Shown: positions 23,311 through 63,168 of the stretch, piece after piece
Layout of the letters: each line of letters starts with the position of its first letter
How positions within the stretch are numbered: position 1 is the stretch's first letter
Origin: a virus
Strand: one strand, 5' to 3'
Length of the DNA: 64,000 bases
IMG/VR virus record: IMGVR_UViG_3300027832_000009
Span: 23,336 to 87,335 of that record
Program-made: the position numbers and the translations under genes
Notes under the pieces: model-generated
Databases searched by the model: none
Told to the model about the DNA's origin: nothing
Seen by the model: only the letters and a program-made list of their open reading frames with translations

Positions 23311-24180
23311 TTAACGCTTGGCGATATCTACAAGACACCGCTGGTGACTAAGACACTGAGCACACACAGTTGCTGCTGGTGCAGCCGGGTCAAACAACGC
23401 GTCTGCATTCATGCACTTGTCGCAGAAGCCTAGCGTATATGACAACGGCCGCACAGCGAACGGGCACTCATTTCTACCTATCGCACACTTCGTGCAGGGG
23501 TGGGTGTAACCTCGTGGGCAACCCGCCTTGTGTCGACACCTGACCGCCAGGAAGTTATCCCTGTTCCATTTACACAGACTATCCGGGCACTCTACTTCCT
23601 TGAACCCGGGTATACCGTCCCTGACACACGACTGCTCAAACTTACCGTAAAATCTTAGGTAAGTCATGTCCAGCGTGTGACGGTACGGGTATCGCCCGTT
23701 AGCGGCAGAGAATCCGATTTTTCTGGCTATGTGTTTGATAGCACCCGCGCTCAGGTATCTGGTAACCGTCAGACCGCTGCCTGTACCGCTCAAGATCCGG
23801 AAGACGCACTCCGATACAATATTCGCATAACGGAGTACACGCGATAGAGACCTTATCTCTACAGCCATCCACTCCTCGCTGTGCTGCCCAACCCACGGCC
23901 TAGCCGCTGCACCGCTCTGGAGTGTTTCAAGATTTCCAGCCATCAACCAAGCCAGCTTTACCGCTACACCGACCGGAATTGCTTCATTAATATGCGGCCG
24001 AACAGTTTCGAGTATCGCATTGTATGGTACGCCAGGCATAACTTTCTTTAACAGCCTGCACAGCTCGCTGAACTCTTCAGCTTCCCTGAGAGGCTTACCT
24101 ACGAAATGCACAAACGCCTTGGAATATAGCGTCTGTCGCAGTTTGTCTATTCTTGTGATGCCAATTTTCGGCCTGTCCAT
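23311..24180 (-). CDS. Cysteine-rich hypothetical protein
   Basis: A 289-residue protein, ATG at 24180 behind AGGG. The N-terminal 150 residues are helical. The C-terminal half holds many cysteines in pairs (CPDSLCKWN, CRHKAGC, CTKCAIGRNEC, CDKC, CAQC), enough for three zinc sites, as in zinc-ribbon proteins. Function is unknown; a nucleic-acid-binding or regulatory protein is a reasonable guess. Confidence 0.7.
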   Translation of the reverse strand: MDRPKIGITRIDKLRQTLYSKAFVHFVGKPLREAEEFSELCRLLKKVMPGVPYNAILETVRPHINEAIPVGVAVKLAWLMAGNLETLQSGAAARPWVGQHSEEWMAVEIRSLSRVLRYANIVSECVFRILSGTGSGLTVTRYLSAGAIKHIARKIGFSAANGRYPYRHTLDMTYLRFYGKFEQSCVRDGIPGFKEVECPDSLCKWNRDNFLAVRCRHKAGCPRGYTHPCTKCAIGRNECPFAVRPLSYTLGFCDKCMNADALFDPAAPAATVCAQCLSHQRCLVDIAKR

Positions 24181-56020: not shown

Positions 56021-56773
56021 CTACACATCTGCCTGAATTGTGACGTGTGTCACTGACGTGTTACAGATTTGCTTTGGCTGTAACACTGTCTCCCATCTCG
56101 GATCCCGGTCAGACCAGCAAAACCTGCATTTAGCGCAGGTCATGGTTGTTGCCAGCTGCACACCGTTTTCTACAGGGCAAACCATCACACTGTTACCCTT
56201 CTTGAGTACAGTCTTGGTGTTGTCTCGAAAAATCAGGTCTGCATCTTTTGGTGCTGCGGCCGCATCTGCGTCATCAACAGCTAGGTACGCTCTGCGGATT
56301 CCTGCGATATACGGTGCCGCAGAATCGTCTCGGTCCATTGACCACCAGAGTTGCATGTTTGGTACAGCCCCCAGCTTCAAGAGAGGGATCAGGAGCTCCT
56401 CTACACGCCAGGATCTCGTGTACGCGTAGAATTGCACGTTCTTCAGGTTCTGGGCGACCTCGACCCATTTTCGGATGTAGTCAGGGCTGTAGAAGTCCCC
56501 GCTGACATGCACGCGAACCACATTTACACACATTGAGCTTATCTTTGCTGTGATCCAAGCTGCGAAGTTCTCTGACTCCGCCAGATCTTTGTTCTTTTGC
56601 AAAATGTCGATGTTTCTCGGCATGCGAAAGAAACCGGCTTTTGCGTAACACAAGGCTTTGCACGTCGCTGTCTCTCCGGGACACGTGTGGGCCGCACCAG
56701 CAGGCAATGACCATGCCCCGACAGTGCGGCCCAGTTTGGAATTTCCGAAGGTGACAGCCGAGTGAGTTATCAT
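56021..56773 (-). CDS. Gp88-domain phage protein
   Basis: A 250-residue protein matching the domain named for mycobacteriophage gene product 88 (PF17338). NSKLGRTVGAWSLPAGAAHT, TCPGETATCKALCYAKAGFF, VRVHVSGDFYSPDYIRKWVE and FYAYTRSWRVEEL are the conserved blocks; the TCPG...C...CYA cysteines and H-x-S-G-D-F suggest a metal site, and CAKCRFCWSD near the end adds more cysteines. The family has no established biochemical role. ATG at 56773 with AGGT upstream. Confidence 0.85.
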   Translation of the reverse strand: MITHSAVTFGNSKLGRTVGAWSLPAGAAHTCPGETATCKALCYAKAGFFRMPRNIDILQKNKDLAESENFAAWITAKISSMCVNVVRVHVSGDFYSPDYIRKWVEVAQNLKNVQFYAYTRSWRVEELLIPLLKLGAVPNMQLWWSMDRDDSAAPYIAGIRRAYLAVDDADAAAAPKDADLIFRDNTKTVLKKGNSVMVCPVENGVQLATTMTCAKCRFCWSDRDPRWETVLQPKQICNTSVTHVTIQADV

Positions 56774-58042: not shown

Positions 58043-59239
58043 CTAAGATTCTACGTCATCGTTATCCATGAACAGCATCGCTCGGGACGGGCGACCCCCG
58101 TTGAGCTGCTGCATGGTACGTTCCATCTCCTCTGCAGAAGACACCTCTGCGCGGATCTGGCCGATCTGGCTTCTGAAGGTCTCAGCAATCCGCGGTATTG
58201 TGCCGTCCACTGCCCGCAAATCTGCTGGTGCAACGTTGTTCAGAAGTGTCTTCACTTCTGCCATCTGTTGCAATAATCGGTCCGTTGCTACAAATTTGAA
58301 ATCCTCCAGCTTCTCCAGGGCTCGTCGTACTGTCTCAAATGTCCTAGCAGTGACACGCCCGTTGCGAGATATCAGATTCTCCACATTTTCCAGTGTGCGT
58401 GCAAGCTCCTCTCTAGGTTCTCTGATCATGCTGGCGATAGCCAGCTCGACCTGCTCTGTGCATGCCTGCCGGATAACGTCCGCGTGCTCGTTCAAATCAC
58501 CCAGCGACAGCACAGTAGGCTGCCCTGCTGTATCTGTAGCCAGTTCCATTGGCGTAACACTGAGGTTGAACTTGCCACGCATTGCCGCAGTTGTCTGTGG
58601 AATACGTGCTCTGATAGCATCCCAGCACGGGCATTTGGCCTCAAGCTGCTGCATGATGGATGCGTAGTCTGCAGTGAACGCATTCACAGCTTCCCAGAAG
58701 CAGTAAGCTACGGACTGCTCTGTCTTGAGCGGATCGTACACTGGTGTTGCGTCACCCAGCCGCTCAATCGGTGTAGCAGCACCCAGTCGCTCCCGCAACC
58801 TGCCCAGTTCGTAAGAGCTCATCAGCCCGTCCTCGCCTCTCGCAAGCTGATACTTGAGCGAGCCGATAGTCTGACCAAACAATTGCCCCATGAAGGACGA
58901 AACGGCAGACTTCGGGATAATCCGTACACCATTTACAGCGAATCCTACGCTGAACCGATTCTTCAGTGCAGAGATTCTCGCTGTGATAGTGTCAAACCTG
59001 GCTTTCCACGGTTTGTTGTCCGCATCCACAGGAAACTTGTCGGTCATCAGTTTTACACGTGGTGTTGTGACAGCTTCTGTCACAATACGTCCGCCGACAT
59101 TTACCTCGGCACCTTTCGGTAATTGAATGTGGCCCCTCCACACACTTAGAGTCGGGGACATCAACACGACATTCTCTGTCAGGAAGGTCGTGCTTACATC
59201 TGTTTCTGTTGTCATCGGTTCGTCTTCCAGTACCGGCAT
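58043..59239 (-). CDS. Possible DUF3150 family protein
   Basis: A 398-residue protein from the ATG at 59239 behind AGGAGGTGG, a very strong site. LSVWRGHIQLPKG, MTDKFPVDADNKPWKARFD, FAVNGVRIIPKSAVSSFMG are in an order reminiscent of DUF3150 proteins, which often sit near AAA+ ATPases in phages and integrative elements. The C-terminal third is helical. The assignment is from remembered pattern only. Here the AAA+ gene is three genes upstream. Confidence 0.65.
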   Translation of the reverse strand: MPVLEDEPMTTETDVSTTFLTENVVLMSPTLSVWRGHIQLPKGAEVNVGGRIVTEAVTTPRVKLMTDKFPVDADNKPWKARFDTITARISALKNRFSVGFAVNGVRIIPKSAVSSFMGQLFGQTIGSLKYQLARGEDGLMSSYELGRLRERLGAATPIERLGDATPVYDPLKTEQSVAYCFWEAVNAFTADYASIMQQLEAKCPCWDAIRARIPQTTAAMRGKFNLSVTPMELATDTAGQPTVLSLGDLNEHADVIRQACTEQVELAIASMIREPREELARTLENVENLISRNGRVTARTFETVRRALEKLEDFKFVATDRLLQQMAEVKTLLNNVAPADLRAVDGTIPRIAETFRSQIGQIRAEVSSAEEMERTMQQLNGGRPSRAMLFMDNDDVES

Positions 59240-59294
59240 GGTACCACCTCCTAAGAATTTGATAGTTCGCAAGGTTTGGTTACTGATAATGCTG

Positions 59295-59310
59295 TCAGAC
59301 AGCTGTCTGA
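59295..59310. promoter_or_regulatory. 16-bp perfect palindrome
   Basis: TCAGACAGCTGTCTGA is self-complementary and lies about 56 bases upstream of the strong start at 59239, in the gap 59240-59474. It could be an operator. The gap otherwise holds a plus-strand promoter and one structured repeat. Confidence 0.45.
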
Positions 59311-59422
59311 ACCCATCCTCAGTCCTCCCTCCGCCAAAGTTTTGGTCCAGAAATCTGCATGTCTAGTCCCCTCTGTTTCTTGTTATCTCGTGGTGCTGTT
59401 ACACAATTTTTTACCTGTGCAG

Positions 59423-59450
59423 TTGACCTGCCTCAAGTTCAGCGTATAGT
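59423..59450 (+). promoter_or_regulatory. Sigma70-like promoter facing the structured repeat
   Basis: TTGACC, 16 bases, TATAGT on the plus strand. A start about seven bases on would put the structured repeat (59457-59484) at the very 5' end of the RNA. No plus-strand gene follows, so the product would be a short or antisense RNA against the gene at 59475-59873. Confidence 0.5.
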
Positions 59451-59456
59451 GCTAGT

Positions 59457-59484
59457 CATGCCTCTGCAGAGGCTTCATTTCTGC
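59457..59484 (+). repeat. Family-B structured repeat in opposite orientation
   Basis: Plus-strand CAT, GCC, TCT, GCAGA, GGC, TTCATT, TCTGC: the reverse complement of all other copies, with both helices perfect. It overlaps the last ten bases of the gene at 59475 and directly follows the promoter at 59423-59450. Its TTCATT loop matches the copy at 3817. Confidence 0.8.
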
Positions 59485-59873
59485 AGACATACGCGCGGCG
59501 GGATGTTGTTAGCAACCAACCAGTCAACCTCTGCCGTTAACGCAGCGGTGTTGTTCGAGAACGGACCCAATACTGGTCCTTTAACCGGCAGCAGATCTGC
59601 CCACCACAGCTCCCTGTACGCAGAAGCCAGCGTTATTCCATCATCTGAATACTGGCAAAAGCACCCAGCTTCCTGATCCCGATCGCACAACCAGCGAACA
59701 GCTGCTTTGCTGAGTTCTGCACCTGGCTCAACGTGCGAGGCCCGGTTAGTCTCTGTTTCACCGAGCGTCTTGAGAACCTTATCCATGTCTGGGTTGTAGA
59801 TACCACGCACATGCTGCGTGTTGGACGACAACCCTGTTCGTGGTATCACAATGACCGTCTTCTTGTCTGCCAC
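59475..59873 (-). CDS. Hypothetical protein beside the DUF2997-like gene
   Basis: A 132-residue protein from a GTG at 59873 (GGGGCG upstream). Its beginning KKTVIVIPRTGLSSNTQ resembles TITIAIPRKGLSRGDRS of the DUF2997-like gene at 59958, suggesting a duplicated N-terminus. The C-terminal half (WWADLLPVKGPVLGPFSNN) is unassigned. It ends inside the structured repeat. Confidence 0.65.
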   Translation of the reverse strand: MADKKTVIVIPRTGLSSNTQHVRGIYNPDMDKVLKTLGETETNRASHVEPGAELSKAAVRWLCDRDQEAGCFCQYSDDGITLASAYRELWWADLLPVKGPVLGPFSNNTAALTAEVDWLVANNIPPRVCLQK

Positions 59874-59884
59874 AGCTTCGCCCC

Positions 59885-59919
59885 AAAAAAAGAAAGGCTG
59901 CGGATAAATATCCGCAGCC
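59885..59919 (-). terminator. Rho-independent terminator
   Basis: GGCTGCGGATA and TATCCGCAGCC form an 11-bp stem with a two-base loop, followed on the minus strand by TTTCTTTTTTT. It follows the DUF2997-like gene. Confidence 0.9.
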
Positions 59920-59957
59920 AGGGTAATTCAAGTTGCAACACACGGCCGCCAAGCTGG

Positions 59958-60164
59958 CTACTCGAGACGGGTCTCGATTTGTGGCACTTTGTAATAGTCT
60001 TCCGTCAGTGTCTGCTCCGTTGGAGCTTTGGAGACGGCCTCTTCAAACATCTTCGTGACGTCCACACAGGACGTCCCCTCCAAACCACCGACGTTGTAGG
60101 TGATTGATCGATCTCCCCGCGAGAGCCCCTTGCGAGGTATTGCGATTGTGATTGTGAACGGCAT
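59958..60164 (-). CDS. DUF2997-like small protein
   Basis: A 68-residue protein, ATG at 60164 with AGGTT upstream. TITIAIPRKGL at the start, VGGLEGTSCVDVTKMFEEAV in the middle and LTEDYYKVPQ at the end follow the pattern of DUF2997 (beta-strand pair, G-x-G-x-x-C, helix, then an E-Y-Y segment). In cyanobacteria DUF2997 genes neighbour DUF1257 and Ycf46-type ATPase genes, and both are next to it here, which strengthens the call. Function is unknown. Confidence 0.7.
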   Translation of the reverse strand: MPFTITIAIPRKGLSRGDRSITYNVGGLEGTSCVDVTKMFEEAVSKAPTEQTLTEDYYKVPQIETRLE

Positions 60165-60190
60165 CTGGAACCTGCTGCTTGAGTTGGTAG

Positions 60191-60219
60191 AAAAACGGCC
60201 AGTGTGGTTACACTGGCCG
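60191..60219 (-). terminator. Rho-independent terminator
   Basis: CGGCCAGTGT and ACACTGGCCG form a perfect 10-bp stem with a four-base loop, followed on the minus strand by TTTTT. It follows the DUF1257 gene. Confidence 0.9.
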
Positions 60220-60251
60220 CGGATTGAGCTGTCTCACACCTGCTGTACTGC

Positions 60252-60617
60252 CTAGTAAGACGTTATGGTCTGAACCATGTCGCCTTTTTCATCCACAGTC
60301 TGGTCGACCGTGTAACCAAGCATCTCTGCCTGTTCTCGTGTGACTGTCGCTGCGTAGTTCTGCAGCAGATGGTCCAAGCAGTCCTGCTTGCCCCATGTTT
60401 CACCGTAGTTGTCGTAATGCGCCTTGCCGGCACCGTCAAAAACAACTGGGTAATTCCAGGTTTTGAACTTCACAGCGTAGCCGGTCACCAGTGTGCCGTC
60501 GAACATTCGGTGCTCGCTGGCGGACTGAGAGCACTCTGCTCCGACCGTTGCTGCAGCCAGTTTCAAGGCGTTGATGTTCGTGACATCTACCGACTTGACT
60601 GTAGTCGTATGTGACAT
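60252..60617 (-). CDS. DUF1257 (Ycf35-like) protein
   Basis: A 121-residue protein from the ATG at 60617 behind AGGGAGA. MSHTTTVKSVDVTNINALKL, then VGAECS, GYAVKFKTWNYPVVFDG, YGETWGKQDCLDHLLQNYA and EQAEMLGYTV follow the DUF1257 family (PF06868), whose members start MSHFT-x-[IV]-K-[ST]. Plastid Ycf35 belongs to this family. Function is unknown. It is transcribed just after the Ycf46-like ATPase. Confidence 0.85.
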   Translation of the reverse strand: MSHTTTVKSVDVTNINALKLAAATVGAECSQSASEHRMFDGTLVTGYAVKFKTWNYPVVFDGAGKAHYDNYGETWGKQDCLDHLLQNYAATVTREQAEMLGYTVDQTVDEKGDMVQTITSY

Positions 60618-60646
60618 GTAATTCGTCTCCCTGTAAGTGAAAGAGG

Positions 60647-60668
60647 AGCCGCTACACATGTAGCGGCT
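60647..60668 (-). terminator. Hairpin between AAA+ and DUF1257 genes
   Basis: AGCCGCTA and TAGCGGCT form an 8-bp stem with a six-base loop, followed on the minus strand by CCTCTTTC. The weak T-tract suggests attenuation or partial termination more than a full stop. Confidence 0.5.
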
Positions 60669-60715
60669 ATCATGAGTGGTCCTGTTAAAATCGTAGACAC
60701 ATAGTCACAGCAGGT

Positions 60716-62482
60716 CTAGTTGTCTATAGACCGGCGGCGGACTCGCGGAGATCCTGTTGTGACAGGTGCAACCGCTATTGGTTCGCTTGCGTACCCGGTC
60801 ACAGGTGTCGCTTTTGCACTGCAGAACGCCTGCATTTGCTGGATAGTTTCCTTTTCTGTTTTTGCCATCGGGTTGATGCTTGTGATGGCCCTCAACAACT
60901 GCGGCATTGTTGGTACGCCGTTACCGTTCTCCGCCATAGCGATATGGCGGGCCTCCTTTACTGCCTCCTCCAACTCGGAGCCGACAAACGCGTCGCTGAT
61001 TTCGTCGAACTGCCGCCAGAACTCATCTGCGAGTCCAAGCTGTGCAATATCCACACCACGCTTCCGCAGGTGCACTGTCAGGATGTTTCTGCGGGCCTCC
61101 GTTGTTGGTAGATCCGTATAGAACATCTTGTCAAATCGGCCCGCTCTCAGCATTTCCGGCGGGATCCCATCTGTTCGGTTCAGTGTAGCGATCACAAACG
61201 TCCGAGAGGTGTTCTCTGCCAGCCATGTTAGCAGAGCTCCAAAGATTCGGCGAGTCACGCCAGAGTCGCCGCTGGACTGGTGAGCATTCCCCAGAGCTTT
61301 GTCAACCTCGTCTAGCACAAGGACGCACCCATTCTGCGCATCCAGGATTTTCAACGCCGCTCTGAGTCTGGCTTCAGACTCGCCTACCAGTGAGCCAAAC
61401 ACCGCTCCGATATCCATGCTGTAACCCGGCAAGCCGAGCTCCACGCAGGTGGCTTTCGCCAACTGGGACTTACCAGTGCCGGGAATACCCAGAACAGCCA
61501 CACCGCGAGGTGGGTCGATCTGGTGCTCCTTTGCTGCACTGGAATACGACAACTTACGTCGTCGCAACCACGCCAGGTACGCGTCGAAACCGCAGAGATC
61601 GCTCATATCCGTGATCTGCGACGGTGGAATGAATGTGAGCACCTCGGACTTCTTGACCACCGCCGCTTTTTCGGTCATCAGTGTCGGGATAACCTTCTCG
61701 TGCCCCAACGACTTGAACTGCGTGATACAGCGTGCCAAGACGTTCTCAGCCTCGAGGTAAGTCAAACCAGCCAAGTTGTCGACAACTGCGTCCCTGCGAG
61801 CTGGTGTGAATGTCGCAATGTCGGCGGCTGCTCCCGTAGAGGCCTGCAGTGCTGTTTCCTGCAGCCTGTCCGCCAGCTCCTTGAATGTCGGAGCGTCCGG
61901 CAGGGGTAGAGACGAGACTGAGATATACGGCCGAGCCTTCATATCCAGATCGACGTTCGCTGAAACAATAAATAGCGGGTGACGGTACCCCTCCATAGTC
62001 AGCCGCTGTCTGGCGGCCAGGTAACACAACTTTTGGCGGATCAGCGGGTTCTTCATGAAGTCGTCCAGATCGTGAAACACAAACAAGCACCTCTTCGGGA
62101 AGTTCTTGCTTGCGTTTGCCGCGGTCTGCGGCACCGGGATGATGGCCTCCAGTGCTTCAGATGGGTTCCTGTACTTCGCGTCCTGAAACTCGGTCGGAAC
62201 GTGGTTGATTCCTTCCAGGAGCCCGATGTAGGAGTAAAACCCTCGTACAGGATCCCAGCAGACCATCATGTTGTTCAGGAATTTTGGCTCCCTTTCCGTC
62301 TTCGTCATGTCTATTGCGACGCTGCGAAGTAGCGTCTCAGCCTGCAGAAGTTCGGCTGTCTGGATATACAAAACCTGGTAAGCTGCGCGAACTCGGCAGA
62401 TCAGGTCTATTCGTAGATCCGCAAGCTGTGAGCGTACGGATGCAGACGAGTCTGCCGGCGTTACTGATTCCACTGTGGACAT
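60716..62482 (-). CDS. Ycf46-like AAA+ ATPase
   Basis: A 588-residue AAA+ protein. The N-terminal half matches the Ycf46 group: AYQVLYIQTAELLQAE near residue 35, CWDPVRGFYSYIG near 75, KRCLFVFHDLDDFMKNPLIRQ near 130, then LFIVSANVDLD and a YISVSSLPLPD strand. The AAA+ domain has Walker A GIPGTGKS (332-339), Walker B CVLVLDEVDKA (386-396), sensor 1 FVIATLNRTDGIP and RAGRFDKMFY with the arginine fingers. Such ATPases remodel protein partners; the substrate here may be the DUF1257/DUF2997 proteins or a host target. ATG at 62482 with GAGAGAG upstream. Confidence 0.85.
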   Translation of the reverse strand: MSTVESVTPADSSASVRSQLADLRIDLICRVRAAYQVLYIQTAELLQAETLLRSVAIDMTKTEREPKFLNNMMVCWDPVRGFYSYIGLLEGINHVPTEFQDAKYRNPSEALEAIIPVPQTAANASKNFPKRCLFVFHDLDDFMKNPLIRQKLCYLAARQRLTMEGYRHPLFIVSANVDLDMKARPYISVSSLPLPDAPTFKELADRLQETALQASTGAAADIATFTPARRDAVVDNLAGLTYLEAENVLARCITQFKSLGHEKVIPTLMTEKAAVVKKSEVLTFIPPSQITDMSDLCGFDAYLAWLRRRKLSYSSAAKEHQIDPPRGVAVLGIPGTGKSQLAKATCVELGLPGYSMDIGAVFGSLVGESEARLRAALKILDAQNGCVLVLDEVDKALGNAHQSSGDSGVTRRIFGALLTWLAENTSRTFVIATLNRTDGIPPEMLRAGRFDKMFYTDLPTTEARRNILTVHLRKRGVDIAQLGLADEFWRQFDEISDAFVGSELEEAVKEARHIAMAENGNGVPTMPQLLRAITSINPMAKTEKETIQQMQAFCSAKATPVTGYASEPIAVAPVTTGSPRVRRRSIDN

Positions 62483-62496
62483 AATCTATCTCTCTC

Positions 62497-63168
62497 TCAT
62501 CGGATCTGTTGGAGCTGCTTTACAATCTCTGCCGAATCTCCATTGATTAACGGAAGAGACTGCAGCTGCTGCGTTAATTTTGCAATGTTCTCTTTGAGCA
62601 TCTGATTGATGCTATCTGTCTTGCTGTTCTCAAATCCGATTACGGCAGCTGCCATCTCCGGATCCTCACTGAACGAGCCAATATCAAACGGAACTCTGAC
62701 GTTTGCTACTATACGTAGAACGTCTGGAGGTGTCACTATCCCCTCCATATCCAGTACAGCGCTGATGTACCCGACAATCTCGTCACTAAACGGGTTATCA
62801 GTTTCTGGAGGCATCAGCAACATGGATTCTGTGATGCCCCAGGAACACTCAGCTGCATCTGCTGGATCCCACAGTTCTGGGTTAAACACACCACCAGACA
62901 GCACATTGCAGTGCATGACGAAGTCTGGCAAGCTATTGAAGAAACTGTCTGTTGTGAGCAGAGTTATGCCGGACATAACCCTGCTCAGCAACGGCTCTTT
63001 GAGGGGTATATTGAAGTCATCTGCAATTTCGTGTCTGATGGTTTCGGGTAGCCAATCGAGCAGCTCCATCCCGTACACATCCAACAAACCTATGATGGCA
63101 GGTGTCGTAAACAGGCTCTGATCTGTCAGAACCTGCCTGTAAAACGTTCGTTGTTGCAGTGTTAACAC
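62497..63168 (-). CDS. Hypothetical protein
   Basis: A 223-residue acidic helical protein from a GTG at 63168 with GGGGGTG upstream. No motif is recognised. It precedes the AAA+ gene by 14 bases and is probably in the same operon, so it may be a partner. Confidence 0.7.
   Translation of the reverse strand: MLTLQQRTFYRQVLTDQSLFTTPAIIGLLDVYGMELLDWLPETIRHEIADDFNIPLKEPLLSRVMSGITLLTTDSFFNSLPDFVMHCNVLSGGVFNPELWDPADAAECSWGITESMLLMPPETDNPFSDEIVGYISAVLDMEGIVTPPDVLRIVANVRVPFDIGSFSEDPEMAAAVIGFENSKTDSINQMLKENIAKLTQQLQSLPLINGDSAEIVKQLQQIR

Follow-up and report, generated by a model that had tools for sequence, protein, structure and literature searches.

A recurrent phage gene module built around a Ycf46-type tandem AAA+ ATPase, probably a protein remodelling machine

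We examined a cluster of five genes in a 64,000-nucleotide stretch of DNA (the window), positions 23,336 to 87,335 of IMG/VR virus record IMGVR_UViG_3300027832_000009. The cluster runs on the minus strand from 62482 to 58043 and encodes, in this order, an AAA+ ATPase, a DUF1257-like protein, a DUF2997 protein, a protein of 132 amino acids (aa) of a family we call P120, and a DUF3150-like protein (Table 1). We argue that it is probably a phage Ycf46 machine, an ATP-driven protein remodeller with small proteins as its adaptors. The 87,335-base record is judged to be a tailed phage because it encodes a large terminase, a DNA polymerase, a UvsX-like recombinase and an SbcC-like protein. An initial annotation of this DNA had listed these genes and proposed that they form a dedicated phage cluster. 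All of them are present at or near the places it gave, on the minus strand.

The ATPase is related to cyanobacterial Ycf46 along both of its units. Aligned with a cyanobacterial Ycf46 (L093), it gives an hhalign probability of 100 and an E-value of 1.7e-86 over profile columns 22-533, although identity between phage and cyanobacterial ATPases is only about 30%. The N-terminal unit (about 19-278) is degenerate and its sequence has no Walker A, whereas the C-terminal AAA+ unit (about 298-560) is intact. G335, G337, K338, D391, E392, N435 and R449 of this second unit are invariant across 49 viral sequences, and they cover the Walker A GxGK, the Walker B DE, the sensor-1 N and the arginine finger (R449). 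The structural model has a mean predicted local distance difference test score (pLDDT) of 85.5 and two AAA-like units in tandem. Its closest Foldseek match is p97/Cdc48 (E 1.3e-19, about 600 columns). There is no protease domain. Two-unit homology, the intact catalytic residues of the second unit and linkage to DUF1257 and DUF2997 place the protein in the Ycf46 family, and its anatomy, as predicted from sequence and model, is what one would expect of a protein remodeller in which a single ring is active. The likeness to Cdc48/p97 (VCP) and other tandem AAA+ remodellers lies in the two tandem AAA units and in the classical Walker A/B and arginine finger of the active unit; the use of adaptors would follow by analogy. 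Unlike Cdc48/p97, the phage ATPase has a degenerate first unit and no p97-type N-domain, and its cofactors are not recognisably related to Ufd1-Npl4.

One can imagine that the ATPase belongs instead to an IetAS-related system for defence or superinfection exclusion against other phages. Over the second ATPase unit there is a match to the PADLOC IetA models (E 2e-19). However, the match is limited to the common AAA core, the N-terminal Ycf46 unit is unmatched, and cyanobacterial Ycf46 matches IetA better (3e-26). Neither a full-length IetA-like ATPase nor an IetS-type protease neighbour was found, and none of the neighbouring proteins tested matches a protease model. We consider this reading highly unlikely.

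Profile searches uphold the assignment of two of the small proteins to DUF1257 and DUF2997, through both Pfam and family-level matches. The window DUF2997 protein scores above the curated cut-off (28.2 against 24.1 bits), and all 43 viral DUF2997 homologues match PF11211. Only two residues are fully invariant over 120 aligned rows (43 viral and 77 cyanobacterial, the latter partly redundant), a glycine and a cysteine three apart in a G-x-x-C motif. The window DUF1257 protein taken singly falls below its Pfam cut-off (17.8 against 22.2 bits) and we therefore call it DUF1257-like. Thirty of 44 viral homologues do match PF06868 (best 1.7e-16), and a profile trained on viral sequences only retrieves cyanobacterial DUF1257 (up to 2e-31). 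By sequence it is a remote relative whose membership is carried at the family level. Its model (pLDDT 88.9) has the topology b-a-bbbb-a-bb and finds no Foldseek match in PDB or BFVD; a TBP-like topology was considered and is a weak hint only. The two families are naturally fused in a single open reading frame at L079:9353-9934. Apparent DUF1257 and DUF2997 fusions in genome G033 are long upstream frames in GC-rich DNA and not real fusions, and a Corndog-type phage protein (L007:8186-8527) that was first aligned as DUF1257 was later dropped.

The gene set recurs in other phages. The order AAA > P210 > DUF1257 > DUF2997 > P120 is found in Rhizobium phages L338C and RHph_I4 and in Rhodobacter phages RcKickapoo and RcTiptonus, and the same P210-containing order occurs in Pseudomonas phage SM1, Aeromonas phage HJ05 and Agrobacterium phage JP1. 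Other genes are inserted within it in some phages, and in several cultured phages the module genes lie just ahead of replication genes. In the Corndog-like mycobacteriophage SchoolBus the ATPase is followed by a protein of the H7 family, a helical partner that differs from DUF1257 and DUF2997. A nucleotide search of phages gave no match and a single-protein IMG/VR scan with the window ATPase gave no relative; the relatives came from an alignment-based search.

We collected 87 viral ATPase loci, namely the window, six cultured phages and 80 IMG/VR loci (a few of the last are near-duplicates), and sought the partner families within 10 kb. DUF1257 is present in 44, DUF2997 in 43, H7 in 34 and DUF3150 in 21, and at least one of the four lies near the AAA gene in 82 of the 87. 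All 142 matches are on the strand of the ATPase. Since co-orientation and packing on one strand are common among phage genes, little weight can be put on the strand count alone. The close spacing is better evidence than mere presence, as is the near absence of DUFs from the H7 loci. The latter form one clade of the ATPase tree (support 0.98), in which the DUFs occur at just two loci, and we use it as an internal negative control. In that tree the window ATPase is placed with those of the cultured P210 phages (0.96). The proposal of a dedicated phage cluster is borne out by these loci, and the ATPase at its centre has intact catalytic residues.

The initial annotation had named the last gene a possible DUF3150. 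Alone it scores 21.4 bits against a cut-off of 24.9, and we call it DUF3150-like because this is under the Pfam threshold. Fifteen of its 16 aligned homologues match PF11348 (best 1e-24). Of the 21 viral loci with DUF3150, 19 have it no more than 2 kb from the AAA gene, and relatives found with a profile seeded by the window protein adjoin the ATPase in, for example, L014, L018, L029, L065 and L084. We regard it as a real member of the module. None of the six cultured phages tested has it, and it was found in one of 98 cyanobacterial genomes. DUF3150, P210 and H7 look like alternative partners of the ATPase. H7 and DUF3150 appear alike by eye, but hhalign gives a probability of 3.4 and we refuse the homology. 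A 223-aa protein upstream of the window ATPase (62497-63168) was ruled out as P210. No Pfam family matches the 132-aa protein, which is part of a small family that keeps the same position downstream of DUF2997 in related phages, and the P120 profile is present in 26 viral loci. It had been described as resembling the beginning of DUF2997; a shared N-terminal pattern is visible by eye, but the resemblance goes no further.

Annotations of plastid genomes have long included Ycf46 and Ycf35, and we know of no established activity for them. The Ycf46 sequence with which we began the genome scan picked out plastid sequences at 80-81% identity as well as a cyanobacterial relative at 39%, and all later work used these retrieved sequences. 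Among 98 cyanobacterial genomes the Ycf46-like ATPase is found in 62, DUF2997 in 58 and DUF1257 in 51. DUF2997 never occurs without the ATPase (58/4/0/36, p=1e-22) and DUF1257 does so once (50/12/1/35, p=3e-15), although these genomes are related and the p-values overstate their independence. In 42 of the 98, a DUF1257 gene has a Ycf46-like gene no more than 4 kb away. The same 4-kb limit applied to all 110 cyanobacterial DUF1257 genes puts 52 near a Ycf46-like gene and 55 near DUF2997; 97 are near one or the other and 10 near both. The co-occurrence of these families that had been claimed for cyanobacteria therefore holds, as it does in other phage genomes.

The cyanobacterial and plastid set of Ycf46 (slr0374 in Synechocystis), Ycf35 and DUF2997 resembles the phage one in full-length ATPase homology, in its small partner families and in local linkage. 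Four cyanobacterial paralogue loci (L165, L166, L167 and L168) even have the AAA-DUF1257-DUF2997 order of the phage. The differences are that phages add DUF3150, P210, P120 or H7, and that cyanobacteria often separate a DUF2997-DUF1257 pair from Ycf46. The Synechocystis cluster contains the ferredoxin gene fed7 (PMC4284462), and none was seen beside the phage genes read. Two side observations concern Ycf46 itself. In cyanobacterial genome G096 (L158:6935-9613) a Ycf46-like ATPase beside DUF2997 and DUF1257 is apparently split by an intein within Walker A. Plastid-type ycf46 also occurs in metagenome-assembled contigs labelled Saprospiraceae, Lokiarchaeota and Pelagibacteraceae (L090, L091 and L092), probably through plastid contamination of the bins.

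The five genes could in principle be chance neighbours in a phage gene block with no joint function, and the shared strand would say little against it. Recurrence in distant phages, the natural fusion, and strict co-occurrence and linkage in cyanobacteria contradict this, and we find it extremely improbable.

A second possibility is that these are auxiliary metabolic genes that help a cyanobacterial host to photosynthesise or use CO2. In Synechocystis, EcaB carbonic anhydrase is less active once slr0374 is inactivated (Jiang et al. 2015, as cited in PMC7496141), and in red algal plastids both ycf35 and ycf46 are present or absent according to habitat (PMC5940233). However, the hosts of the cultured phages include the non-photosynthetic Rhizobium, Pseudomonas, Aeromonas, Agrobacterium and Mycobacterium, and the low identity between phage and cyanobacterial ATPases argues against recent capture. 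A photosynthetic role cannot explain the module because phages of Rhizobium, Pseudomonas or Mycobacterium carry it or a relative of its ATPase, and an origin as photosynthesis genes is rejected on this host range. A metabolic function is very unlikely.

In the remodelling mechanism that we favour, the ATPase would act like Cdc48/p97, probably as a hexameric ring. DUF1257 and DUF2997 would be dedicated small cofactors, most likely an adaptor that delivers substrate to the ring, and the invariant cysteine of DUF2997 would be essential. The exchangeable phage partner that usually adjoins the ATPase (DUF3150 here, P210 or H7 elsewhere) probably determines the target. In an infected cell the machine would spend ATP on dismantling or remodelling a phage or host protein complex, and in this way the module may be useful to the phage. 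It must be noted that several points weigh against this mechanism. The putative pore-loop residue of the ATPase is often L and not aromatic, and the machine might therefore not unfold proteins strongly. The DUF2997-DUF1257 pair is found apart from Ycf46 in most cyanobacteria, which makes a tight complex less certain. It is linkage alone that suggests an adaptor role for DUF1257, because its model resembles no recognisable solved structure. Finally, the viral loci were picked by their AAA gene, and the presence of the other families nearby is partly selection.

The cyanophages offer another line of reasoning. In the T4-like cyanophages P-SSM2 and P-SSM7, genes for DUF2997 and DUF1257 overlap as a pair, with scores that exceed the Pfam cut-offs (L181:4802-5381 and L182:4832-5384). 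No Ycf46 gene was detected in either by a search that finds it in three control phages. The pair is close upstream of the DNA polymerase gp43 in P-SSM2 and just before psbA in P-SSM7. In cyanobacterial genome G092 (L186:1147-4275) an NNH2-NACHT gene in three frames ends in a copy of DUF1257 that is 78% identical (85/109) to the genome's own Ycf46-linked DUF1257, a layout suggestive of a decoy. In genome G063 (L190:2737-6598) MoxR-type AAA and vWA genes are followed by a short gene that is mostly DUF1257 of the Ycf46-linked type. For conflict systems of this sort, it has been proposed that inactive host modules are decoys for invader proteins (PMC7159879); the main text of that paper does not mention DUF1257.

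These links raise the scenario of host takeover or counter-defence. Phage DUF1257-DUF2997, with or without a phage ATPase, would plug into or poison a putative host Ycf46 machine, and some hosts would guard that machine with DUF1257 decoys. A pair travelling without a detectable phage Ycf46 and copies of a host DUF1257 in the NACHT gene and the MoxR-vWA set speak for it. However, most phages here bring their own ATPase and have no need of a host Ycf46, and there are just two decoy-like cases, one of them in a gene broken into frames. We think takeover as the explanation of the module is unlikely, if far from absurd. A broader proposal, which we make tentatively and think less likely than not, is that the Ycf46-type machine is a phage-host battleground. 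Many phages would bring the whole machine with exchangeable target partners, cyanophages a DUF2997-DUF1257 pair that redirects host Ycf46, and cyanobacteria DUF1257 decoys in NACHT and MoxR-vWA proteins. The cyanophage and conflict-locus links are suggestive of this but are not proof.

The initial annotation also had every gene set apart by a terminator or hairpin, giving graded expression. Two gaps, DUF1257/DUF2997 and DUF2997/132-aa, do contain strong terminator-like hairpins, and a third has a hairpin without a U-tract (Table 1), but nothing convincing precedes the DUF3150 gene. Region-wide there are 11 terminator-like sites against 6.7 expected (standard deviation 2.3), and Rfam gives no family match. 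The same gaps in two related phages have no comparable strong hairpins, so the terminators are at most a local feature and graded expression is a weakly supported possibility.

Table 1. Genes and hairpins of the cluster, in window coordinates.
Feature	Position	Strand	Evidence
Ycf46-type tandem AAA+ ATPase, 588 aa	60716..62482	-	PF00004 E 9.8e-26; hhalign against cyanobacterial Ycf46
DUF1257 (Ycf35-like) protein, 121 aa	60252..60617 (conserved MSH start at 60617; open frame from 60659)	-	PF06868 E 0.0039 singly
DUF2997 protein, 68 aa, G30 and C33 of G-x-x-C	59958..60164	-	PF11211 28.2 bits
132-aa protein, P120 family	59475..59873	-	alignment with L002-L006 orthologues; family profile
DUF3150-like protein, 399 aa, mainly helical	58043..59242 (TTG alternative 59272)	-	PF11348 E 1.7e-4 singly
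Intrinsic-terminator-like hairpin, DUF1257/DUF2997 gap	60195..60220	-	11-pair stem, then TTTTC
Intrinsic-terminator-like hairpin, DUF2997/132-aa gap	59896..59919	-	perfect 11-nt arms, then TTTCTTTTTT
Perfect hairpin without clear U-tract, AAA+/DUF1257 gap	60647..60668	-	inverted repeat

Two other genes of the record were noted. A Gp88 family protein (PF17338, 1.9e-33) lies at 56021-56773 of the window, beside the strand switch after the terminase-side genes. Outside the window, L178:17457-19910 encodes an 817-aa protein, most of which consists of short V-x-x-Q-V-x-E/D-Q-type repeats.

The protein families themselves are already known, and one GenBank record labels both DUFs side by side. This is Rhizobium phage RHph_I4, which with its relatives has the same module (EVC24_084 to 088) and whose annotation names the DUF1257 and DUF2997 domains. 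RHph_I4 has P210 between AAA and DUF1257, and its relative L338C is without DUF3150; the window differs in having no P210 there and a DUF3150 at the end. We found no paper that links Ycf46, DUF1257, DUF2997 and DUF3150 in phages, in a search that mostly did not reach subscription papers, and the phage module appears to be unreported. Our results join Ycf46, Ycf35 and DUF2997 as one module in cells and phages, and one that is not tied to photosynthesis. Since cultured Pseudomonas, Rhizobium, Aeromonas and Mycobacterium phages carry the module or a relative of its ATPase, its function is now testable in easily grown phages. DUF3150 and the invariant cysteine of DUF2997 are new handles on families of unknown function.

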